Notes: generated from the letters alone by a model not told the origin. Shown: positions 15,967 through 29,830, counted from the stretch's first letter. The stretch is 42,355 bases of DNA from Candidatus Uhrbacteria bacterium (GCA_003576745.1 QEVR01000004.1:1-42355), one strand, 5' to 3'. Translations and numbers: made by a program.

Positions 15967-16282
15967 AGGAAGTGGGGAGTAGGGGGTGGCCGTGGGCCAT
16001 GGGTCGTGAGGTATGGGTTATGGGCCGTGAGCCTTGAGCCGTGAGCCATGAGCCCCGAAACCCGAACCCTTTACCCTCTACCCTCTACCCTCTGCCCTTT
16101 GCCCTGGGTCTGTAGGATCGTAGGTCCGTAGGGTCATGTGCTGTTTATCCTAGACCTATAACCCGCAACCCGATCTCCATTCATTTCCCACAACTCCCTC
16201 AACCCGAAAATTCTAGAACGGTTCTTTATAGACCCTACGCAACCACGTCCTACGCAACCACGCAACTCTCTACCTACCATCC
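15967..16282 (+). repeat. Intergenic short-period repeat array A
   Basis: This 316-bp spacer has no gene. It starts with a G-rich segment, then ten heptamers of the type RGYYRTG (ggccgtg, ggccatg, ggtcgtg, aggtatg, ggttatg), then taccctc heptamers, then octamers (gtaggatc, gtaggtcc) at 16106-16132, and finally a reverse-oriented 15-nt unit near 16237-16275 (ctacgcaaccacgtc). The same words recur in arrays B-F. Confidence 0.85.
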
Positions 16283-17803: not shown

Positions 17804-18685
17804 CTACTTCCTACCACCCATTCCCTTCATCATCCGTTTTACATCATCCCTCATATCCTTCCGTTCCATGGCGAGCTCGATATTTGCTTTGAGCCAGCCG
17901 ATTTTTGAACCCGTATCGTAGTAGCGACCCTCGATTTCACGGGCATATACGGCCCGTTTTTTCATGAGCCGGAAAATCGCATCGAGCAGAACATATTCCC
18001 CATTGTGTCCGGGCTTTAATGCGCGAATTTCGTCAAAAATGTCCGGCGTCAATATATACGCTCCCATGGCCGCGAGCCTTGAAGGCGCCCGTTTTGGCCC
18101 GGGTTTTTCCATCATGCCTTTTACTTCGTAGGTGCGCGTATCCACCTTTTGTTTCGGGTCGATAATGCCGTAGCGCTTGGTTCCCTCCGCATCTACGGGG
18201 AACACCGCGAGCACGGGGTCATGATAGCGTTCATATGTTTCAATCATCTGGCGGAGTCTCGGAACGTTTCCCGAGATAATTTCATCGCCGAAGAGCACGG
18301 CGAATGGTTCACTGTGAATGAGATTCGCCGCGTTCAACACGGGCGTGGCATTTCCATACGGTCCTTTTTGCCGGATATAGATGAAGTTCGCGAGTTTCCC
18401 GACATGCTGGACGTCCGCGAGAATGTCTTTTTTTCCGGTTTTCCGAAGCCATGCTTCCAATTCCGTGTTCACGTCGAAATGATCTTCCACGGGTCGCTTC
18501 GTATGCGATGTTACAAGGATAACTTCCTCAATCCCGCTTTCCACCGCTTCTTCCACCACGTACTGGATAACAGGCTTGTCGATAATCGGGAGCATTTCCT
18601 TTGGCATGGCCTTGGTGGCGGGAAGAAACCGCGTTCCGAAGCCTGCAACGGGAATAATCACCTTTCGGACGGAGTATCGTTTCAT
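17804..18685 (-). CDS. galU: UTP-glucose-1-phosphate uridylyltransferase
   Basis: The protein has 293 residues from the ATG at 18685. A frame extension to 18736 would add residues encoded by repeat array C, upstream of the -10 box, so it is rejected. The nucleotidyltransferase signature GFGTRFLPATKAMPKEMLP is at residues 15-33, with the substrate-binding Lys in PKEM. DKPVIQYVVEEAVESGIEEV and FGDEI follow as in GalU. It makes UDP-glucose from UTP and glucose-1-phosphate for glycan synthesis, and could supply the TreT-like enzyme at 39989. The segment QKGPYGNATPVL differs from the more usual GLGHAV pattern, so exact sugar or nucleotide specificity is less certain. The last codons and the stop fall in repeat-like sequence. 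Confidence 0.85.
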   Translation of the reverse strand: MKRYSVRKVIIPVAGFGTRFLPATKAMPKEMLPIIDKPVIQYVVEEAVESGIEEVILVTSHTKRPVEDHFDVNTELEAWLRKTGKKDILADVQHVGKLANFIYIRQKGPYGNATPVLNAANLIHSEPFAVLFGDEIISGNVPRLRQMIETYERYHDPVLAVFPVDAEGTKRYGIIDPKQKVDTRTYEVKGMMEKPGPKRAPSRLAAMGAYILTPDIFDEIRALKPGHNGEYVLLDAIFRLMKKRAVYAREIEGRYYDTGSKIGWLKANIELAMERKDMRDDVKRMMKGMGGRK

Positions 18686-18693
18686 ATAGCAGG

Positions 18694-18699
18694 ATTGTA
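18694..18699 (-). promoter_or_regulatory. galU -10, leaderless
   Basis: TACAAT on the minus strand ends 8 nt before the ATG at 18685. No -35 or Shine-Dalgarno site is visible. Confidence 0.55.
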
Positions 18700-19040
18700 C
18701 CGCATGGGGAGGGAGTGGGGAGTGGGGGGTGGCCATGGGTTATGGGTCATGCGCCGTGAGCCATGGGCCTTGCGCCCCGAAACCTATTCTCCGTTCTCCA
18801 TTCCCCTTTGCCCTGCACTCTTGCACGGAAGTTCTAGGGTTGTTGCTATTGGTAATTGGTACCGAGGTCGTTCAAGAGTTCCAGAGTTTTAGGGTTCTAG
18901 GGTTGGGAAAGAGAAGCTTTAGAACTCTGGAACCCTAAAACCCTTGGCTCAAGGCTCACGGCGTATGACCCATGCCTCACGACCCACGGCTCACGGCCAC
19001 CCCCCCACTCCCTACTCCTACTTCCTCCTCGTCCTGCGCG
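18700..19040 (+). repeat. Intergenic short-period repeat array C
   Basis: This 341-bp spacer has no gene. It opens with the G-rich segment, then heptamers, then long blocks shared with array B (18753-18784, 18786-18852 and 18869-18951), and closes with reverse-oriented heptamers (about 18945-18995). Confidence 0.85.
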
Positions 19041-19061: not shown

Positions 19062-20483
19062 ATGAAGCGATTCAATAAGATTTTTGCCGTTTTCCTCACT
19101 CTTGTTCTGGTCGGTCAGGGATGCACAAAGGGTCCCACGCCCGAGGCCCAGCAGCTCTCCAAGCCCACAACGCTCAATGTCTGGTCCGTCGTTGACGATA
19201 TCGACGTCTACCAGCCCATCCTGAACGATTTTCGCGCGGCATTCCCGAATGTCGAAATCCGCTTCCGACGCTTCCGGCTCGAGGAATACGAGAATGAAAT
19301 CCTCAATGCCTTGTCCGAAGACAAGGGACCGGATGTTTTTCTGATTCACAATACGTGGGTGGGAAAATATCTCCCCAAAATTCAGCCGGCGCCGCCATCC
19401 GTACGCGTTGCCCAGCAGGTGGTTACCGGAACGGTGCGCAAACAGGTGGTGTATGAAGTCGTGGAAGCGAAAACAATCTCTCCGCGGCAATATCGCCAGG
19501 ACTTTGTGGATACTGTGGCAAAAGACGGCATTCGGCGAGTGAATGTTTCCACGGTAGCGGATCAGCCGAAATTCGAAGACCGCGTTGTCGCCATTCCCAT
19601 GAGCGTGGATACGCTCGCCCTGTATTACAATAAAGACCTTTTGAACACAGCGGGCATTGCCACACCGCCGGAAGGCTGGGATCAGTTTCAGGCGCAGGTG
19701 CGACGGCTGGTGAGGCAGAATGCGCTCGGCGAAATCGTGCAGGCCGGCGCCGGTTTTGGAACCGGAAGCAATGTGGAACGTTCGCCGGACATTATGGCGC
19801 TTCTCATGATGCAAAACGGTACGGTCATGGCGGACGATAACGGCTATCCCACGTTCGAACGCATTCCGCCAGATCTCGCGAGCGAACGCGATACGCCGCC
19901 CGCATTCGAGGCGCTCGGTTTTTACACGGATTTCGCGAATCCGTCCAAGGACGTGTATTCCTGGAATTTCTCCATGCCGAATTCCCTTGACGCTTTTATT
20001 CAGGGAAGTTCCGCTTTTTTCCTCGGGTATAGCTATCATCTTCCCGTTATCCGTGCCCGCGCGCCCAAAATCAATCTCGGCATCACCAAGGTTCCGCAGA
20101 TTACCGGCAATCCCGAAGTGAATTTTGCAAATTACTGGATGTGGACCGTTTCTAAAAAAGCGAAAAACTCGGATCTTGCCTGGCACTTCGTGAATTTTCT
20201 CACCAATGCCACGGAAGCGCCGAAATACCTCGAAGCCGCAAAACGTCCGGCAGCTCGGCGCGCTCTTTTAACGAGCCAGCTCGAAGATGAAGATATCGGC
20301 GTGTTTTCATCGCAAGTCCTTACGGCAAAAAGCTGGTATCGCGGCGTGGATCCGAAAACCGCGGAGCTTGCCATTATAGATATGATTGACGGCGTTGTTC
20401 AGGGGACGCTTGATCCGCGCAATGCTCTTCGTCTTACATCCGAAAAAATTGCGCAGACTATTCAGGCGCCGAGGACACAATAG
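19062..20483 (+). CDS. Extracellular solute-binding lipoprotein (ABC family 1 type)
   Basis: The 473-residue protein begins with MKRFNKIFAVFLTLVLVGQGC, a lipoprotein signal with the lipid-modified Cys at 21. The mature part looks like a family 1 (sugar or oligosaccharide) binding protein: TTLNVWSVVDD near the start, FPNVEIRFRRF, GPDVFLIHN, then MSVDTLALYYNKDLLNTAG followed by PPEGWDQF, and late DLAWHFVNFLTN. These proteins hand substrate to a membrane permease and ATPase, but no such genes lie in the window, so it is an orphan here. The substrate is unknown. It is leaderless and bounded by repeat arrays. Confidence 0.8.
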   Translation: MKRFNKIFAVFLTLVLVGQGCTKGPTPEAQQLSKPTTLNVWSVVDDIDVYQPILNDFRAAFPNVEIRFRRFRLEEYENEILNALSEDKGPDVFLIHNTWVGKYLPKIQPAPPSVRVAQQVVTGTVRKQVVYEVVEAKTISPRQYRQDFVDTVAKDGIRRVNVSTVADQPKFEDRVVAIPMSVDTLALYYNKDLLNTAGIATPPEGWDQFQAQVRRLVRQNALGEIVQAGAGFGTGSNVERSPDIMALLMMQNGTVMADDNGYPTFERIPPDLASERDTPPAFEALGFYTDFANPSKDVYSWNFSMPNSLDAFIQGSSAFFLGYSYHLPVIRARAPKINLGITKVPQITGNPEVNFANYWMWTVSKKAKNSDLAWHFVNFLTNATEAPKYLEAAKRPAARRALLTSQLEDEDIGVFSSQVLTAKSWYRGVDPKTAELAIIDMIDGVVQGTLDPRNALRLTSEKIAQTIQAPRTQ

Positions 20484-20961: not shown

Positions 20962-23682
20962 ATGAATCGGAGGACCGTTTTGTTCGGCCTTTCCGCAATC
21001 TTCGCGATTGCTTTCGTATTCTTTATTTTTCAAAAGGCCGATGCGGCGTTTCCGGCCTGCCAATGCTCCTGTATTTCGAGCGAAGATACGCAGAATCTGC
21101 TTCGGGTACCCCAGCCCGATGCAGCCTCCTGTTCTGCCACGGTATGTCCGGCCGCCTGCTCCGAAATCGGATCGACGTTGGTGAGTACGGAATATAATGC
21201 GTCTAGCAATCGCTGCGTTTGCGGCTGTTCTAAAACAGCGCAATCTTGGACGTATGCCAAGAAAACGCCGGGAAGCGCTTCTTGTCTCGGGGACTGTTCA
21301 GAGGCCTGCGGCGGCTTGGCGAATGTCGATTCGAATCAAAATCAGTCCTTGAATACCGTCCAGATCGCCTGCATCACGAGTAGCGACTGTTCGGTGGGCC
21401 AGTTCAGCGCGTATAGCGACGTGTCCTGCATTTTTCAGCCGGTAGGGCCGAATGAAAATCCTTCATTATGGCCGCCGGATGGAAAAAAGCCCGTCTGCCA
21501 GATCGAGCCGACAAAGGAAAACGCGGATAAGGAATGCCAGAATTACGGAGGCGTTGCAAAAAACGGCATCTGCACCTTTATTTCAAGCGGGGAAAATCCG
21601 GAAGCATCGTTTAAGTCGAGGCCGTATATAAAGGCTGACGGGACATATGCCAATATCGATTTTACCAATACATACGGAACCGCAGATGCGCTGAACACTG
21701 TTATCGATGCGTCGACAACGAAGGCGCCCAATGTGGCGGGCCTCTGCGAATTGTACGGAAAAACCCAAGGATCCGGACGCTATCTCTGCATCAAAAGCAA
21801 AAAGAATACCTGTGGAACGGTTACGCCGCCGAGCAGCCTTACCATCAAAACCAAGAGCAGTTATGAGTGCGTTCTTACGTCCACGCTCGACGCGCAGGGT
21901 CTTGATAAGGGAAAGCTTTGTTTTCCGTCCACGGGAGGCCCTGCGGGCACGGATTATGCTGATCTCTGCATTAATAAGCCCGGATCCCTTTGCTGCGCGC
22001 AGGCCGCCGGCGGCTGTTTAGGTAATCAGGATTGCTCGCTCGACGGGTCCATGATTTGCAAGGGAGCGAATTTGAGCACACTCACGTACGGCACCTGCGA
22101 GTGGAATGTCGTTTGTGATCCGGCGGCTGTCGATCGCCGCTGCCGATACGCATCGCCGGCGGAAGTCGTGAACAATGAAATCTGTTCGCCGGAATCCATT
22201 TTGCAATCGGTTCAGCGCCGGTGCCCGAATCAGTCGCAGTATTGCTGCAAGGCCCCGGATACGCAGGCGCTTTCGAGCTGTGCCGCGGACATGAGCACGA
22301 ACCTTACCTTTAATAGCGGCGGAAGGAGCTATAAGGATTATACGTGCATTACCGGCACGCAAATTCCCGATTCCGAGTATGTTCCGGGAACGAAAACCTT
22401 GAAACATTGGGAAGACGGTGGAAACTGCCTGCGGAGCGATATTCCGGCTGGAGGGCAGGCCGGAGGGACGACGATTACGCGTTGCGGCTCCGGACAAATA
22501 TGCTGCAATGCCAAACAGCTGCAATTCACGCAGGACGTAAAGGATTTTTACAGCCGGCCGGGCGGGGGGCAGAATTGCGGCATCGGCACGCCGCAAAAAA
22601 TTTGTACGGCCCCTTCGGCCATCGTTAAAGACGAGGCGGAAGCGCAAAAACGGGGATATCCCTCGCTGGACGCGTATTATGCCGCGCTTGCAAGTTCCCC
22701 GGGATGCGACATTACGCCGTATAGTCCGAGCAGCTTTACGAACAATAAGGAATGCTTTACGGGATTCCTCTGCTGCATTCCCGATTATTCAACCGGCGCC
22801 GGTTTTTGCGCAAAGGATAGTGATTGCGATCCCAATAATTATTGCGCGCCGAACTCTTCGAATCCCGGAGCATGTAAAAAGTGCGATTTAGGCACGCGCC
22901 TGTGCGTTCCCGGCGGTTTGTTGGAAAAGCAATTATCCGACAGCAGCTGTTTTGTGCGGGCCACGGCACAGGGCGCAAAAACCGATCAGGCGCTGAATGT
23001 GAGCGGAGCCACGAAAGAAAGTTATTCCTGCCAGCTCGTATTTACAGAATCGCTTGGCGTGAACGGATGCGTCCCGCAGGGCTGTGATGCGGAAAACGCC
23101 GCGGGCGGCGCTGAAAGCGGCGCAACCTTCCAGTGCTGTCCGCCGGGCGTGGGTGCTGCGCCAGGCGCTGCAGCCGCGGCTCCGGCACCAGCCGCCGAGG
23201 CCGATGTAATTGCCCCGGGAACCATCGGGCTTCCGGCCTGCATCCGAAGCGGCCAATGCCAGCTCGGAGACATCATTTGGACAGGCGCGCAATTTGCGAA
23301 TTTTCTCATCAGCATTTCCGGCGCTGTCTTTTTGGCCATCTTTGTATACGGCGGCTTTTTGTACCTAACGGCAGGAGGCTCGGATGATCGCGTGGGCAAG
23401 GCCAAAAAGATGATCGTGCAGTCGACCATCGCCATGGTGCTCATGATGGGCGGATTCATTTTTATTCGCTTCATTCAGACATCACTTATTGCCACTTCCG
23501 CAGGGCAGGATGTATTAAGCGGCAGAGCCTGCGCCGAACTTTCCAACGATAAAACCCAGTATGCCTGTATCTTTTTGACCACGGATCCCCAAAGCGATCC
23601 CAAAGGGTATGATGCAGAGGCAAAAGACCGCGGCTGTGAGCGCGGCAAATGTCCGGGAGCTTCCTTATGCTGTCCTCTGTAA
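20962..23682 (+). CDS. Large cysteine-rich protein with C-terminal two-helix pilin-like domain
   Basis: The 906-residue protein has a signal peptide (residues 1 to about 28, ending KADAAF). A long extracytoplasmic region (about 29-770) is very rich in Cys, with repeated modules closing in CC: SLCCAQ, QYCCKA, QICCNA, FLCCIP and FQCCPP. Two membrane helices at about 776-802 and 813-836 are separated by a short basic loop (GGSDDRVGKAKK), the pattern of TrbC/VirB2-type (T4SS_pilin) proteins. A C-terminal tail again has Cys and ends SLCCPL. With the loop inside, both Cys-rich parts are outside the membrane. It is first in an operon with two smaller proteins of the same plan. The domain call is solid by pattern; adhesion, pilus tip or secretion roles are guesses. 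Confidence 0.75.
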   Translation: MNRRTVLFGLSAIFAIAFVFFIFQKADAAFPACQCSCISSEDTQNLLRVPQPDAASCSATVCPAACSEIGSTLVSTEYNASSNRCVCGCSKTAQSWTYAKKTPGSASCLGDCSEACGGLANVDSNQNQSLNTVQIACITSSDCSVGQFSAYSDVSCIFQPVGPNENPSLWPPDGKKPVCQIEPTKENADKECQNYGGVAKNGICTFISSGENPEASFKSRPYIKADGTYANIDFTNTYGTADALNTVIDASTTKAPNVAGLCELYGKTQGSGRYLCIKSKKNTCGTVTPPSSLTIKTKSSYECVLTSTLDAQGLDKGKLCFPSTGGPAGTDYADLCINKPGSLCCAQAAGGCLGNQDCSLDGSMICKGANLSTLTYGTCEWNVVCDPAAVDRRCRYASPAEVVNNEICSPESILQSVQRRCPNQSQYCCKAPDTQALSSCAADMSTNLTFNSGGRSYKDYTCITGTQIPDSEYVPGTKTLKHWEDGGNCLRSDIPAGGQAGGTTITRCGSGQICCNAKQLQFTQDVKDFYSRPGGGQNCGIGTPQKICTAPSAIVKDEAEAQKRGYPSLDAYYAALASSPGCDITPYSPSSFTNNKECFTGFLCCIPDYSTGAGFCAKDSDCDPNNYCAPNSSNPGACKKCDLGTRLCVPGGLLEKQLSDSSCFVRATAQGAKTDQALNVSGATKESYSCQLVFTESLGVNGCVPQGCDAENAAGGAESGATFQCCPPGVGAAPGAAAAAPAPAAEADVIAPGTIGLPACIRSGQCQLGDIIWTGAQFANFLISISGAVFLAIFVYGGFLYLTAGGSDDRVGKAKKMIVQSTIAMVLMMGGFIFIRFIQTSLIATSAGQDVLSGRACAELSNDKTQYACIFLTTDPQSDPKGYDAEAKDRGCERGKCPGASLCCPL

Positions 23683-24422
23683 GTTATCGCCGAAATACGC
23701 ACGCTATTGCCGCTCTTTGGATGGTCGGGATGCTTGCGGCCATGGCCGTATTTAGTTTTATCGGCATACATTCGGCGAGCGCAGCCGCCTGTCTTGATAC
23801 GTCAAAACTCCCCGGCATTACGAGCGACTGCAAAGCCAGTGCCGCGGCCGATGAACTGGATACCAGCCAGTCTACCTATTGGTTCGATAATAAACTCACG
23901 ACCGGCCCCGGCTGCGCGCCGAATATCTGCGCCGTAAAGCGAGGGAGCGCGCTGTGTGCGGCGCTCGCTACATTCGCCAAGAAGACCGGCACATACCAAT
24001 GCGTAACGACATGCGCAGGAGAGGCGCTATCGCAGAGCGTTCCGGTTGCCGGGAGCGCCTGCTTGTCTGGCCAGTTTTGCTGTGCCGTGACGGCCGCCCA
24101 ACAGCAGGCGGCAGGCGGAGCCGCCGCCACTGCCGGCCAAAAAGCGCCTGTGACCGGCCCCAAAACGCTTCCCGATCCTTTGGGCGGTGTGAATATTCCC
24201 ACGCTTATCGGCAATGTCATCCGTACCTTCGCGGGTGTGGCGGGATCCATCGCGCTTCTCATGTTCGTATGGGGCGGGATTTCGTGGATTCTTTCCGGAG
24301 GGGAGCAGGCGAAAGTCGCACAGGCCAAAAAGACGCTGGTGAATGCTTCCATCGGCCTCGTGCTCATTTTTGCCGCCTTCAGTTTTGTCTCCGCCATTAT
24401 CGACGCCATTCTGGCTGAATAA
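23667..24422 (+). CDS. Cys-containing two-helix pilin-like protein
   Basis: The protein has 251 residues from ATG 23667, which has GGGAG 7 nt upstream and overlaps the previous gene by 16 nt. An ATG at 23649 is possible but less well placed. A signal peptide ends near HSASAAAC. A Cys ectodomain (about 45-150) includes SGQFCCAV. An Ala/Gly linker follows, then two helices at about 184-206 and 219-245 flanking GGEQAKVAQAKK. It has the same layout as the 906-residue neighbour, with one CC module instead of several. Translational coupling is likely. Confidence 0.75.
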   Translation: MLSSVSYRRNTHAIAALWMVGMLAAMAVFSFIGIHSASAAACLDTSKLPGITSDCKASAAADELDTSQSTYWFDNKLTTGPGCAPNICAVKRGSALCAALATFAKKTGTYQCVTTCAGEALSQSVPVAGSACLSGQFCCAVTAAQQQAAGGAAATAGQKAPVTGPKTLPDPLGGVNIPTLIGNVIRTFAGVAGSIALLMFVWGGISWILSGGEQAKVAQAKKTLVNASIGLVLIFAAFSFVSAIIDAILAE

Positions 24423-24426
24423 CGAT

Positions 24427-25188
24427 ATGCCATCACAAGGACAGCCGCATGTGTTCGCCTCCGTACTCGGAATGCTTGCTTTCGGTATTTTTTTGCCGGC
24501 CGCGGCTTTTGCCGTTACATGCCAGGAAGCGGTGAATCAGGTTTCTTCGGTTGGGGATGTGGGCATTTGTTTGACCCAGCCGAATCCTTCCAGCGCATTC
24601 AATGGAACGGAATTTTTTAGCCTTGCCAAAGTACAGGTTTCCTGTGACGGCCAGGGAGAAAGCTGTTATGTGAGCCCGGCATCTTTACAAACCGGCTATT
24701 ATTGCAGTCAGCTCGGCAAACTCAAGGGTGTTACGGATGCGGCCTGTAAGAACGGGAGCGCATGTCCCGAAGGTCAGACAGCGCTTGCCTCGGATGCGAA
24801 TGCGGATCCTTGCGTAGATGCCGGCGGACCGCGCACATGCTGTACCGCCTCGGCGATCGGGAGTCCCGCTGCCGGCGCAACAACGGCCGCGGCGGTAAGC
24901 GAAAAAGGAATCACGCGCACGTCCTTTGGCCTCAAGAATCCGCTTGGCCGACGCACGGTCCCGCAAATCCTCGGGAGCGTGGTCGGATGGCTCGGCACCT
25001 TTGCCGGAGGATTGTTTATGCTCTACCTCATTTGGGGAGGCGTTCAATGGATGGCTGCGGGAGGGAGTACGGAACAGGTGGAAGCCGGGAGAAAAAAAAT
25101 TATCGCCGCCGTGTCCGGTATCGTCGTTATTCTTTTGTCATATCTCATTGTCGATGCCGTAATCAGTTTTACGACGATACGTCAGTAA
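24427..25188 (+). CDS. Cys-containing two-helix pilin-like protein
   Basis: The protein has 253 residues from ATG 24427, 4 nt after the previous stop. The frame is open further upstream, but that part overlaps the helix codons of the preceding gene and lacks a signal-like start. The signal peptide (LAFGIFLPAAAFAVTC) precedes a Cys-rich domain with GPRTCC. The two helices at about 185-210 and 222-248 flank GGSTEQVEAGRKK. It is the third member of the operon. Function unknown; probably a membrane-anchored surface or pilus-like component. Confidence 0.75.
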   Translation: MPSQGQPHVFASVLGMLAFGIFLPAAAFAVTCQEAVNQVSSVGDVGICLTQPNPSSAFNGTEFFSLAKVQVSCDGQGESCYVSPASLQTGYYCSQLGKLKGVTDAACKNGSACPEGQTALASDANADPCVDAGGPRTCCTASAIGSPAAGATTAAAVSEKGITRTSFGLKNPLGRRTVPQILGSVVGWLGTFAGGLFMLYLIWGGVQWMAAGGSTEQVEAGRKKIIAAVSGIVVILLSYLIVDAVISFTTIRQ

Positions 25189-25534
25189 TCCGCTAGGATA
25201 GTAAGTCAGTACGTAAGTGGGGTAATAGGCGAAAAATCGTTTTAGAGTTTTAGGGTTGTAGAGTTCGAGGGTTCTGGGGTTGGGAATGAGTTTCGTGTCT
25301 TTGATAAACAGCACAAGGACCTACGGACCTACGATCCTACAGACCTAGGGCAAAGGGAACGGGTTACTGGTTACGGGTTCGGGTTACGGGCGCATGGCTT
25401 ACAGACTACGGTCTTACGGACCTACGATCCTACAGACCTAGGGCAAAGGGAACGGGTTTCGGGGAAGATTATGCTCCCCCTACGCAACTACGTCCTACGC
25501 AACCACGTACTCTTTCCCCCTACGCAACCCCATC
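25189..25534 (+). repeat. Intergenic short-period repeat array E
   Basis: This 346-bp spacer has no gene. It carries octamers of the type TTNTAGRG (ttttagag, ttttaggg, ttgtagag), two reverse copies of the octamer word (25320-25345 and 25414-25438), and a reverse-oriented 8+7-nt unit at the end (ctacgcaactacgtc). Confidence 0.85.
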
Positions 25535-25570
25535 TTGACGGCCTTTCTCGACCCGTAAGAAGAAAAAATG

Positions 25571-25605
25571 TACAATAGAAGGCATCATGAAACAGAAAGG
25601 AGGTG
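25571..25605 (+). promoter_or_regulatory. -10 box and perfect Shine-Dalgarno of the small pilin operon
   Basis: TACAAT at 25571-25576 is followed by AAGGAGGTGA (25596-25605), a full match to the 16S rRNA tail, 10 nt before the ATG at 25616. This is the strongest ribosome site in the window and contrasts with the leaderless genes. A TTGACG at 25535 is too far away (30 bp) to be its -35. Confidence 0.6.
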
Positions 25606-25615
25606 ACACATTGGC

Positions 25616-26017
25616 ATGACGCACACAACAAAGAAGATCGCGAGTTTCGCGGCTTCCGTTGCGCTCGCGGCTTCGATTGCGCTCCCAGGTGTCGCATTGG
25701 CTCAGGGAACCCTGAATTCCAATGATCTCGGCGTCGGCGCCATCCAGAGCGATATTAAACTCGGCGCGGGAGACGTCCGTCAAACAGCGGCCCGCCTTAT
25801 TAACGTCGCGCTCGGATTCCTTGGCATTATCGCCGTTCTTATCGTACTGGTCGGCGGATTCAAATACATGCTCTCCGGCGGCAATGAGGAAAAGACGGCC
25901 GAAGCGCGGAAACTCATCGTATCCGGCATTATCGGTTTGGCCATCATCTTGTCCGCATGGGCAATTACGAGCTTCGTTATTTCTCGGCTCATCTCGGCGA
26001 CGGCAGATACTCCGTAA
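25616..26017 (+). CDS. Two-helix pilin-like protein (TrbC/VirB2, T4SS_pilin type)
   Basis: The 133-residue protein has a signal peptide ending GVALAQG (about 30), a short linker, then helices at about 60-85 and 97-125 around GGNEEKTAEARKLIVSG. It has no cysteines. The mature form is about 100 residues, like VirB2/TrbC pilins. It is first of four similar genes and the only one with a strong Shine-Dalgarno site. Confidence 0.8.
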   Translation: MTHTTKKIASFAASVALAASIALPGVALAQGTLNSNDLGVGAIQSDIKLGAGDVRQTAARLINVALGFLGIIAVLIVLVGGFKYMLSGGNEEKTAEARKLIVSGIIGLAIILSAWAITSFVISRLISATADTP

Positions 26018-26065
26018 ATACAGAACGCGCCTCATGCCTCTGCGTGGGGCGCCGGGCACTCTTCC

Positions 26066-26521
26066 ATGAAGCCTTTTCGATTCGCGGCCGTTCTCCTCGG
26101 CCTTGCACTCAGCATGGCGCCCATTGCGGGCGGCACCGCTTTGGTGCAGGCACAGGGGTTCGAATCCAAAGATACGGGGCTTGTCGAAGCGGGGCAGAAG
26201 GCCGGATTTAACACCCAGCTTCCATGTCGCACCGAACCCGGTGGATGCATTCCATTCTTCATCGGGACCGCGGTGAACGCTCTTCTCGGCATTTTCGGCG
26301 CGCTTTTCCTGGTCCTTATTTTATGGGGAGGCGTGCAGTATATGTTCGCCCAAGGGGAACCTGACCGTATCAAGAAGGCAAAACAGACCATTATCAACGC
26401 CGTTCTCGGCATGATCATCGTGGCCGCATCTTACGCCATTGCGAACTTTGTTCTCACGACCATCTCCAGCGCCACCGGGGGCGGAGGAGGCGCAGAAACA
26501 GGCGCGCAAACGAGCCCCTAA
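26066..26521 (+). CDS. Two-helix pilin-like protein
   Basis: The 151-residue protein has a signal peptide ending LVQAQG and a Cys pair in the short ectodomain (LPCRTEPGGCIPF). Helices at about 70-92 and 105-135 flank QGEPDRIKKAKQTIINAV. The tail is Gly-rich. It lies 48 nt after the preceding member, with no clear Shine-Dalgarno site. Confidence 0.8.
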   Translation: MKPFRFAAVLLGLALSMAPIAGGTALVQAQGFESKDTGLVEAGQKAGFNTQLPCRTEPGGCIPFFIGTAVNALLGIFGALFLVLILWGGVQYMFAQGEPDRIKKAKQTIINAVLGMIIVAASYAIANFVLTTISSATGGGGGAETGAQTSP

Positions 26522-26525
26522 CCGT

Positions 26526-26939
26526 ATGAAAGCCGCTCTCCAACGAGCAATCCTGTTCGGCACACCCCTCTTTTTTCTTCCGCGTGCGGCTCTTGCCCAG
26601 GGGAAGAGCTTTGTGGACAGAATCCGTAGCGGGGTAAATACCGCAGGCGCTCCCGCAGGCCTCACCCAGTCGGCGCCGCTCGAGGTCCTTATCGGCAATC
26701 TCATTAATGCGGCGCTCGGATTCGTTGGCGTTGTCTTGCTGGGCGTGCTCCTGTATGCAGGATTTTTGTGGATGACGGCGGGAGGAAACGTGGACCAAGT
26801 GAAAAAGGCGAAAGCGATGATTACCAATTCCGTCGTCGGCCTCGTGATCGTGGCGGCGTCATTCGCCATTGCGAATTTCGTATTAGGCGCTATCACGGGC
26901 GCAACGACAGGCGGCGGTGGCGCGCAAACGTCACCTTAA
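26526..26939 (+). CDS. Two-helix pilin-like protein
   Basis: The protein has 137 residues from ATG 26526, 4 nt after the previous stop. The open frame extends upstream to 26439, but the signal peptide (MKAALQRAILFGTPLFFLP) starts here. The helix-loop-helix has GGNVDQVKKAKAMITNSVVG, and the tail is Gly/Thr-rich. It is very similar to the next gene, which suggests recent tandem duplication. Confidence 0.8.
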   Translation: MKAALQRAILFGTPLFFLPRAALAQGKSFVDRIRSGVNTAGAPAGLTQSAPLEVLIGNLINAALGFVGVVLLGVLLYAGFLWMTAGGNVDQVKKAKAMITNSVVGLVIVAASFAIANFVLGAITGATTGGGGAQTSP

Positions 26940-26947
26940 TCCAGCTT

Positions 26948-27334
26948 ATGAAGAATACATTCAAATTTTTAACCTCCGCAATCGCGGCCACCGGAAGCCT
27001 CACGCTCCCGTTCGCGGTTTTGGCGCAGAATCCGTTTCAACAGGCGCAAAACCTCGTGGGGAATGTGGCGCAGTCGGCGAATGTGGGCCAGCAGCAGGAG
27101 CTCCCCGTGATCGTGGGACGCATTATCAATGTGATCCTCGGTTTTTTGGGAATCATTCTGCTCGTCCTCGTTCTCTATGCAGGGTTTTTGTGGATGACGG
27201 CCGGCGGCAATGAAGACCAGGTGAAAAAAGCAAAACAGTACATCACCAATTCGGTCATCGGCCTCATCGTGATTGTGGCGGCATTTGCGATTTCCAACTT
27301 CGTGTTGAATTCGCTCATCAACGTCACCCAGTAA
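26948..27334 (+). CDS. Two-helix pilin-like protein
   Basis: The protein has 128 residues from ATG 26948, 8 nt after the previous stop; an upstream in-frame extension to 26768 is a shadow of the previous gene. The signal peptide ends FAVLAQNP. The loop GGNEDQVKKAKQYITNSVIG is nearly that of the preceding paralogue. It is the last gene of the operon and is followed by a terminator. Confidence 0.8.
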   Translation: MKNTFKFLTSAIAATGSLTLPFAVLAQNPFQQAQNLVGNVAQSANVGQQQELPVIVGRIINVILGFLGIILLVLVLYAGFLWMTAGGNEDQVKKAKQYITNSVIGLIVIVAAFAISNFVLNSLINVTQ

Positions 27335-27995: not shown

Positions 27996-28769
27996 CTAGT
28001 AGGTCTCGATGCCCCGTGTTGCGTTGTACACGGTGCGGACGGCTCCCCAGGCATAGGCCGTTGGGCCTTCGCGGTAGGGGAAACCGATGCGGTCTTCCCA
28101 CATACCGACGGGCTGAAGATACGGCTGCCCGGGAATGCGGTTGTACAGCACCACGCGGATACTGTGTTTCCCGTTCCCGTCCAAGACGGTCTTTACCATT
28201 TCGCCCGGAGGGACGAGAGGGAGAAGGCTCGCTTGGCGTCCTCCGCCGATCTTTGCGGCATTCGTGGGAGCGAGCAGTCCCTGAAAGCCGTTATAGAGCC
28301 GTACCATCTCGCGCCCGTCGATGATGACATGCGCCCAGTACGGACTTTGATTTTTGATGGCGAGACACATGCCTCCGCAGGGCTGGCCGTCCATGGGATC
28401 CCGGTTCAGGTATCCCACGGACGGTCCAACACTTCCGGCAATGGGTGCCGGGGCGAAGGTTCCGAGCACGGTCGTGCCGGGGGCTCCGCGCGTGAGGCCG
28501 AGCAGTTGGCGTCCGCCGTCGGCAGGCGCCGCTTCCGTCCTTCCTTCGGCTTCGGCGCGCGCCTGTGCCGCCGCCACCAGGTCTGGCCGAGGTTCGGCCG
28601 CCAGCCGCTCGAGCTTTTCGTTCTCGAGTTTTAGGCGCTCATTGTCGCGCGCCTGGCTCTCGATCTTTTGGATGTAACGGGCCGTCTCGTCGCGTGACGG
28701 TCCGGATGCGCATCCGAAGGCGCCGAAGGCGATGCACGAAACGCATACGATCATGAGAATCTTGTTCAT
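27996..28769 (-). CDS. Lipoprotein with coiled coil, unknown function
   Basis: The 257-residue protein has a lipoprotein signal (CIAFGAFGC, Cys 20). A coiled coil follows at about 28-75 (YIQKIESQARDNERLKLENE), then a low-complexity linker, then a globular C-terminal part with CGGMC and aromatic motifs (YWAHVIIDGREMVRLY). AAGGAG lies about 8 nt upstream of the ATG. It is the last of three lipoprotein genes on this strand. I do not recognise a family; the C-terminal part looks like a small beta-rich domain. Confidence 0.7.
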   Translation of the reverse strand: MNKILMIVCVSCIAFGAFGCASGPSRDETARYIQKIESQARDNERLKLENEKLERLAAEPRPDLVAAAQARAEAEGRTEAAPADGGRQLLGLTRGAPGTTVLGTFAPAPIAGSVGPSVGYLNRDPMDGQPCGGMCLAIKNQSPYWAHVIIDGREMVRLYNGFQGLLAPTNAAKIGGGRQASLLPLVPPGEMVKTVLDGNGKHSIRVVLYNRIPGQPYLQPVGMWEDRIGFPYREGPTAYAWGAVRTVYNATRGIETY

Positions 28770-28917: not shown

Positions 28918-29520
28918 TCATTCGGACGGCGTTTCATCTGCTGCCGTCGCCTTGGGGTTTTTGTCCTTGGCGTCGCCGCCCTGCGGGGCGGAGCATGCTC
29001 CGCCCCTACGGGCGGTCAAACATCCGATTGCGCGCGTGTTTTTGTGCACCCGCTTAGCGACCGTTCCTATGTCCTTTTGATATTCATCGCGGGACACGAG
29101 CGGGGGAGCTGCCTGACTGTAGCGCGCGTATCCGGCTTGCGTCGGATCCGCTTCGCCTACCATGAGAAAGCTTCCGCTGTACTCGTTGGGACCCGGGGGA
29201 GCCGGCATCACGTAGGACGCAGGGCCGTATCCCATAGAACCGCCGTAGCCTGGAACGAAGGCTCTGCCACCGGAGGTGACGTTCCTGCAGTACGCATCGG
29301 CCTGGGACGAACCCATGGTCGGCGCATTGTACGCGCGGCATTCGCGGAATGCCTTGTCGGTCACGATGACCTCGGAATGATCCGAGGAATACGGTCCCGC
29401 ATTGTCCTTCACCGTCCGCTCGCCCGAGGCATCGCGAACGGTGGTCGTGCGCGTATACGTACCGCACCCCGCAAGGAGGAGCAGTGATACTGCGAGTACG
29501 AGAATGATGAACCTGGTCAT
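28918..29520 (-). CDS. Small lipoprotein, unknown function
   Basis: The protein has 200 residues from the ATG at 29520, which has AAGGAGA at good spacing; the longer open frame upstream overlaps the previous gene and is rejected. The lipoprotein signal is MTRFIILVLAVSLLLLAGC (Cys 19). The mature part has a Thr-rich start, a middle with Cys (FRECRAYN, ADAYC) and a Gly/Pro/Tyr-rich stretch (GYGGSMGYGPASY). The C-terminal part RRGGACSAP is encoded by a perfect REP-like palindrome, so the last ~25 residues may have been added by element insertion. No family recognised. Confidence 0.65.
   Translation of the reverse strand: MTRFIILVLAVSLLLLAGCGTYTRTTTVRDASGERTVKDNAGPYSSDHSEVIVTDKAFRECRAYNAPTMGSSQADAYCRNVTSGGRAFVPGYGGSMGYGPASYVMPAPPGPNEYSGSFLMVGEADPTQAGYARYSQAAPPLVSRDEYQKDIGTVAKRVHKNTRAIGCLTARRGGACSAPQGGDAKDKNPKATAADETPSE
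28985..29006. repeat. REP-like palindrome 3, inside a coding region
   Basis: GGGGCGGAGCA/TGCTCCGCCCC is a perfect 22-bp palindrome within the 3' part of the 200-residue lipoprotein gene. It resembles palindrome 2 in its GGGGCG...CGCCCC arms. Confidence 0.65.
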
Positions 29521-29530
29521 TGCGTTCTCC

Positions 29531-29830
29531 TTAGTAGGGGGAATAACCGTAGTAGTACAGGGGAGCGAATTGTCCTGGACGTCCGCCCCAGACCTTTCGC
29601 CGGCAGTAGTCTTCCTTGTCGGGGAATCCGTTGAGCTCGGCGAGACAGTCCTGGTAGTCGCTCGTTGTCGTTGTCTCGCTGTTCGAGTGCGATCTATACG
29701 GCCCTGTTTTGACGTCGTGCTTGGTTTCCTGCACCGGGGACTTGGCATCCGCGCTGAACGCATGATTGCCGCATCCTCCTGCGGAGATCAGGAACACGAC
29801 AAGGCCGGTCGCGATGAGAGGGATTTTCAT
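29531..29830 (-). CDS. Small lipoprotein, unknown function
   Basis: The protein has 99 residues from ATG 29830, with a lipoprotein signal (LVVFLISAGGC, Cys 20). An alternative ATG at 29851 would add MGGERFV ahead of a good signal. It contains a Cys pair (DCLAELNGFPDKEDYC) and ends Tyr-rich (YYYGYSPY). The pattern xDCLAELxxFPDKEDYCRRK resembles the FRECRAYN...ADAYCRN part of the next gene, so the two may be distant paralogues. It is first in the operon, 10 nt before the 200-residue gene. Confidence 0.65.
   Translation of the reverse strand: MKIPLIATGLVVFLISAGGCGNHAFSADAKSPVQETKHDVKTGPYRSHSNSETTTTSDYQDCLAELNGFPDKEDYCRRKVWGGRPGQFAPLYYYGYSPY

Follow-up and report, generated by a model that had tools for sequence, protein, structure and literature searches.

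What do seven tandem pilin-like genes encode together when three of them carry large cysteine-rich heads and four are minimal? The genes lie on one strand at positions 20962 to 27334 of a 42,355-nucleotide stretch of DNA (hereafter the window), which is contig C4 of a 1.06-Mb genome in four contigs. The named relatives of the lead pilin come from Candidatus Uhrbacteria in nearly all cases, and by these matches the source genome is that of a Patescibacterium close to Ca. Uhrbacteria, a tiny organism that probably depends on a host. An earlier sequence-only reading had described the genes as two-helix pilin-like paralogues in two adjacent operons. The array and its closest neighbors are as follows, in window coordinates.

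17804-18736, minus strand: GalU-like UTP-glucose-1-phosphate uridylyltransferase, named from sequence; outer neighbor of the block
19062-20483, plus strand: SBP_bac_1-like lipoprotein, 473 aa, lipobox Cys21; PF01547 E 2.6e-30; directly upstream of the array
20962-23682, plus strand: ORF1, lead pilin; signal peptide, ~750-aa head, VirB2-like hairpin at aa 776-838, six-Cys C-terminal module
22933-23154, plus strand: last N-terminal six-Cys module of ORF1 (aa 658-731); profile match E 2.6e-17
23524-23679, plus strand: C-terminal six-Cys module of ORF1 (aa 855-906); homologous to the last N-terminal module
23649-24422, plus strand: ORF2, headed pilin, 257 aa, 10 Cys in the head; PF18895 E 1.9e-12
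24427-25188 (longest frame from 24343), plus strand: ORF3, headed pilin; PF18895 E 1.2e-9
25189-25615, no strand: gap of 427 bp between headed and minimal genes; two dispersed-repeat copies and a Shine-Dalgarno before ORF4
25616-26017, plus strand: ORF4, minimal pilin, most conserved member; position 4 has 82% mean hairpin identity in 14 arrays
26066-26521, plus strand: ORF5, minimal pilin; PF18895 E 1.9e-10
26526-26939 (longest frame from 26439), plus strand: ORF6, minimal pilin; PF18895 E 3.6e-8
26948-27334, plus strand: ORF7, minimal pilin, 128 aa; PF18895 E 2.2e-9, NF045849 over cutoff

The ORFs exist as first described, the three headed members (ORF1 to ORF3) being followed by four minimal ones of 128 to 151 aa; the likelier starts are 24427 for ORF3, 26526 for ORF6 and 26948 for ORF7. 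The proposed common plan was found in all seven, namely an N-terminal signal peptide with an AxA-type end (judged by eye), a helix, a basic loop containing GG and a second helix. Against Pfam PF18895 (T4SS_pilin), ORF2 to ORF7 score 33.8 to 47.5 bits, over the gathering cutoff of 26.6, and ORF1 scores 18 bits (E 0.003), under the cutoff, but reaches E 4e-20 against a profile made from the neighboring array pilins. When ORF1, ORF3 and ORF7 were scanned with NF045849 (Mbov_0395 pilin-like conjugal protein; cutoff 40 bits), ORF7 scored 45.7 bits, ORF3 fell under the cutoff with 21.6 bits, and ORF1 gave no match. The best score for Pfam PF04956 (TrbC/VirB2) was that of ORF2 (20.2 bits, E 7e-4), which does not reach the cutoff of 27.9; therefore, the proteins were filed as T4SS_pilin, VirB2-like, rather than as TrbC/VirB2. 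Far from falling into unrelated families, the seven share PF18895, and chance is excluded because of the profile scores and the conservation of the array in 20 of 20 fetched relatives. By these profiles, all seven ORFs are firm members of the T4SS pilin family.

Cysteines number 62 in the N-terminal head of ORF1, 10 in that of ORF2 and 11 in that of ORF3, the last count taking in one from the doubtful extra start. The large ectodomain was confirmed, and its length, previously put at up to 740 residues, is refined to about 775 aa before the hairpin of the 906-aa ORF1 plus a 68-aa tail with six Cys after it. The ORF1 head shows repeated Cys modules ending in CC, and the modules on either side of the hairpin are homologous (hhalign probability 95.3, E 2.4e-8). 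Such disulfide-type modules flanking the lead hairpin fit a topology in which the N and C termini would both lie outside. Across relatives, the shortest lead-gene heads have about 140 aa and 8 Cys and the longest about 850 aa and 61 to 62 Cys; in about a dozen arrays a six-Cys tail of 63 to 87 aa extends past the hairpin. An even Cys count, expected if disulfides pair, was found in 47 of 53 Cys-rich members, a figure inflated by the kinship of the sequences. The C..CC motif was observed 85 times versus 42 in shuffles (maximum 59); because this excess is modest and comes from related proteins, we put the weight on the profile homology.

AlphaFold2 modeled ORF7 as two helices (residues 52 to 84 and 89 to 127), with pLDDT of about 90 to 95 across most of the hairpin. 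A fold search of the minimal-pilin model against the PDB returned generic two-helix matches and no pilus, so no pilus claim is based on them; profile and single-sequence searches of PDB sequences likewise found no pilus, a result with which kinship is compatible. The lead-protein model was weak (mean pLDDT 65), and we therefore claim no fold for the head; among the matches listed for this model, the highest probability belonged to 8dfu, a conjugation pilus of Aeropyrum pernix (0.89; E 0.81).

As to the two adjacent operons, the gap between headed and minimal genes is present and contains a good Shine-Dalgarno match, AAAGGAGGTGA, ahead of ORF4, but in the operon-split test promoter-like matches around the gap were no better than those in shuffled sequence, and a promoter dividing the array was rejected as a signal within chance. 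The intergenic regions of the window also contain a 30-base dispersed repeat, CCTACGATCCTACAGACC(T/C)AGGGCAAAGGG, at 16095, 20557, 20803, 25328 and 25421, five copies versus none expected; on other contigs, similar sequence seems intergenic too, read there as junk ORFs. Elsewhere in the window, a 4,071-aa ORF at the contig edge (34-12249), in which 21 LVIVD beta-propeller repeats and further matches to propellers were found, is likely a giant surface protein, and two small lipoprotein-like ORFs (28918-29763 and 27996-28769) lie downstream of the array on the minus strand.

The clustering is conserved. The 20 relatives that share the array belong to the same family and class (one locus is interrupted at a contig end), and the block is also found in named Uhrbacteria contigs. 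Relatives have 1 to 4 Cys-rich headed genes and 2 to 8 minimal ones, as a rule with the headed genes first and the minimal genes last. In a hairpin tree (90 sequences, 14 arrays, one family), which rests on few alignment columns and gives the later minimal positions no resolution, position 1 forms a single clade (14 rows, support 100/100), as does position 4 (14 rows, 99/100), and positions 2 and 3 share one clade (96/86). For 81 of the 90 hairpin members the best match lies in another genome, and mean identity is 82% at position 4 and 39 to 56% at the other positions, with 34% among the window paralogues themselves. These position-specific clades, together with the almost frozen position 4, favor the view that the subunits are positional orthologues, an old and specialized fixed set with one frozen member, over recent variants.

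No VirB4, VirB6 or relaxase was seen within the window, as the first reading had stated, and the distant VirB4-like ATPase that it proposed to look for was found on contig C3 (C3:293720-295648). This protein, the single VirB4 of the genome, scores 355 bits against NF045971 (CD1110 VirB4 family, monoderm), over the curated cutoff of 325, and also matches CedB weakly; 37 of 38 class genomes encode it, mostly at 64 to 88% identity. The array on C4 is unlinked to virB4, and the two are far apart in low-contig relatives too; the pilins closest to virB4 belong to another set (C3:269-274 kb). A coupling-protein-like ATPase (PF02534-like; 30 bits, cutoff 20.1) is located at C3:21745, no relaxase of the PF03432 class was found in the genome, and the TrbL_3 profile (PF19590) gave zero matches in the genome and likewise zero in controls, so that this negative does not speak against a VirB6. 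Around virB4, three sequences are without a Pfam match: L020:11067-11714 (215 aa, one TM), L020:15351-20000 (764 aa) and L058:1-714, part of a large multi-TM protein spanning the locus join. By position, they are candidates for VirB8 or VirB6.

In total, the genome has 15 PF18895 matches at E <=0.1, in three main groups plus a few weak scattered ones, so that besides the array (Set A) there are two further headed-pilin loci. Set B (C2:154-168 kb), present in most class genomes, encodes a hairpin protein of 615 aa with a Big_5 domain (600 to 660 aa in class genomes) and a giant protein (about 4,000 aa; L021:12459 on into L025; C2:156458-168.6 kb; an N stretch lies near its end in the own genome), in which an N-terminal T4SS-pilin hairpin is followed by TIG, Big and Cys-rich regions. 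In relatives, the giant has 2,900 to 3,700 aa, with about 150 to 160 Cys in those counted. Set C (C3:269-274 kb and 384 kb; L019:7273-11799, L023:6431-8395) comprises hairpin proteins that extend into long C-terminal domains (one FGE-sulfatase-like, barely over cutoff), and most members have Cys-rich N-terminal heads; a DsbA-like thioredoxin gene lies beside each group. The first group of Set C is about 20 kb from virB4, and its kin are 2 to 15 kb from virB4 in some relatives. Two by-eye assignments in this set, the L019:7273-8766 tail as SLT-like and L019:10522-11799 as NlpC/CHAP-like, were rejected, as Pfam, NCBIfam and PDB sequences gave them no support.

The lipoprotein encoded directly before the pilins scores 106.9 bits against SBP_bac_1 (PF01547; cutoff 26), has maltose-binding-type relatives, and is the sole SBP_bac_1 match of its genome; such a match occurs in 37 of 38 class genomes, nearly always as one protein each. 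In the class loci, the lipobox Cys21 hardly varies, nor do a dozen aromatic residues. Its gene directly precedes the pilins at 19 of 21 array loci, with a homologous GalU-like gene beyond it at 14 of the 21, and adjoins pilins in 34 of 37 class genomes (a hand count from coordinates), the other three being fragmented assemblies. Across the phylum, a homologue at E 1e-15 or better is found in 180 of 240 genomes, and 23 of the 33 loci fetched have a same-strand pilin within 3 kb downstream, mostly as the next gene; the remaining 10 homologues have no neighboring pilin gene. Given about ten pilins per 1-Mb genome, we estimate this adjacency to be far above chance. The ABC permease family BPD_transp_1 (PF00528), detected in 14 of 14 control genomes, has no match in the own genome or in 36 of 38 class genomes. 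The linkage and the missing permease suggest that the sole SBP of many such genomes may work with a pilus and not with an importer.

Taken together, we consider it somewhat more probable than the contrary that the genes of the block specify VirB2-type T4SS pilins in a fixed set, together with a lipoprotein receptor at the surface, forming a mixed pilus or patch; assembly by VirB4, filament formation, the ligand and host contact are parts of this model that we infer. The hairpins would insert in the single cytoplasmic membrane so that both termini face outward and the basic GG loop lies inside, and the VirB4-driven T4SS would draw them into a short pilus or a membrane patch of mixed composition. 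The minimal pilins would make up the shaft or base, with ORF4 as the constrained core subunit, and the headed pilins, the lead above all, would be placed at the tip or surface as disulfide-hardened binding heads, oxidized by DsbA-like enzymes; in a helical shaft, there may be too little room for the 775-aa head. The lipoprotein would bind a ligand at the cell surface, probably a carbohydrate or glycan, and act as receptor or adhesin for the pilus without feeding an importer. The likely use would be host-cell contact or uptake from the host cell. The idea of a shared anchor with variable heads is borne out at the level of the genes, which encode one pilin family with a common hairpin and heads of differing length. 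The first reading had overlooked the SBP-like lipoprotein gene next to the array, the positional orthology, the two additional headed-pilin loci and the fact that arrays of this type had been published for Patescibacteria.

The hairpin might instead be a membrane anchor only, with a mixed patch that involves neither polymerization nor VirB4. Heads of up to about 850 aa here, and proteins of about 2,900 to 4,000 aa in the second pilin locus, fit a shaft poorly, and the array is unlinked to virB4; yet the proteins match conjugal pilins at the family level (ORF7 exceeds the NF045849 cutoff), the minimal members carry no head that would need an anchor, and the pilin array is essential in the T4SS cluster of a Saccharibacterium (PMC10633639), which leaves this explanation doubtful. 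We regard as more improbable still that the pilins were recently amplified for antigenic or host-range variation. The low paralogue identity (mean 34%) and fast-changing heads of very different lengths would agree with it, but the tree shows old positional types and no within-genome bursts, 81 of 90 best matches lie in other genomes, and position 4 is almost frozen; head variation within fixed positions is possible.

The lipoprotein could also be an ordinary sugar-uptake protein whose permease is non-homologous or very distant, and its position ahead of the pilins would then be of historical or regulatory origin only. Its PF01547 match, maltose-binding-type relatives and conserved aromatic residues speak for this, but the pilin linkage is retained over much of the phylum, and a single SBP per genome coexists with the absence of BPD_transp_1 permeases from 36 of 38 class genomes, so that we think it unlikely. 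Compared with the fixed pilin set plus receptor, a more specific proposal is speculative and, on our present estimate, improbable: having lost its ABC importer, the SBP lipoprotein would bind a ligand at the surface and either pass it on to a mixed T4SS-type pilus whose heads consist of disulfide modules or be presented by that pilus. If true, such an SBP-coupled pilus would be a phylum-wide contact or uptake machine of Patescibacteria distinct from conjugation and type IV pili.

VirB2-like pilin arrays of 2 to 11 divergent tandem genes have already been described in Patescibacteria (PMC12102498) and reviewed (PMC12857230), so the core finding is of a known kind. In Ca. S. epibionticum ML1, a Saccharibacterium and the one strain tested, both the T4SS and the pilin array proved essential (PMC10633639), and in enriched Patescibacteria T4SS pilins were among the genes that combine high expression with an unknown function (PMC10936435); the T4SS of Saccharibacteria, which are the best-studied Patescibacteria, has been described as having a completely unknown role (PMC11665869). 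Antigenic or host-range variation by VirB2 arrays has been proposed for Bartonella and suggested for Patescibacteria (PMC12102498). In a partial literature search, which is no proof of novelty, no description was found of the SBP link, the double-sided Cys modules, the positional orthology or the giant pilin-anchored proteins, and PMC12102498 uses none of the terms solute-binding, substrate-binding, sugar, ABC transporter or disulfide in its main text; the SBP link, the heads and the constant order of the subunits thus look unreported. A fixed headed subunit set with a linked receptor-like lipoprotein offers named targets for surface labeling, pull-down and ligand screens.

Like the published Patescibacteria arrays (PMC12102498), the present one consists of tandem divergent VirB2-like pilins of PF18895 with a monoderm-type T4SS; the published ones mostly have no relaxase, and here the search with PF03432 found none. 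Unlike them, the present array lies away from virB4, has three Cys-headed members, shows positional orthology and is led by an SBP-like lipoprotein. The Mbov_0395 family of mycoplasma ICEs (NF045849) is matched by ORF7 over the curated cutoff, but Mbov_0395 is a small protein of a conjugative element, whereas the genes here are chromosomal, multi-copy and in part headed. To our knowledge, known conjugation pili have tiny pilins and no large Cys-rich heads. The array shares the hairpin pilin with archaeal conjugation pili (8dfu, Aeropyrum pernix; the lead fold match is weak) and with VirB2/TraA pili, and differs from them in its large Cys-rich heads and in that its filament is a prediction from genes. 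The upstream protein, for its part, resembles maltose-type ABC substrate-binding lipoproteins in its PF01547 family and lipoprotein-type signal, but its genome lacks an ABC permease of the usual family and its gene is tied to pilins.
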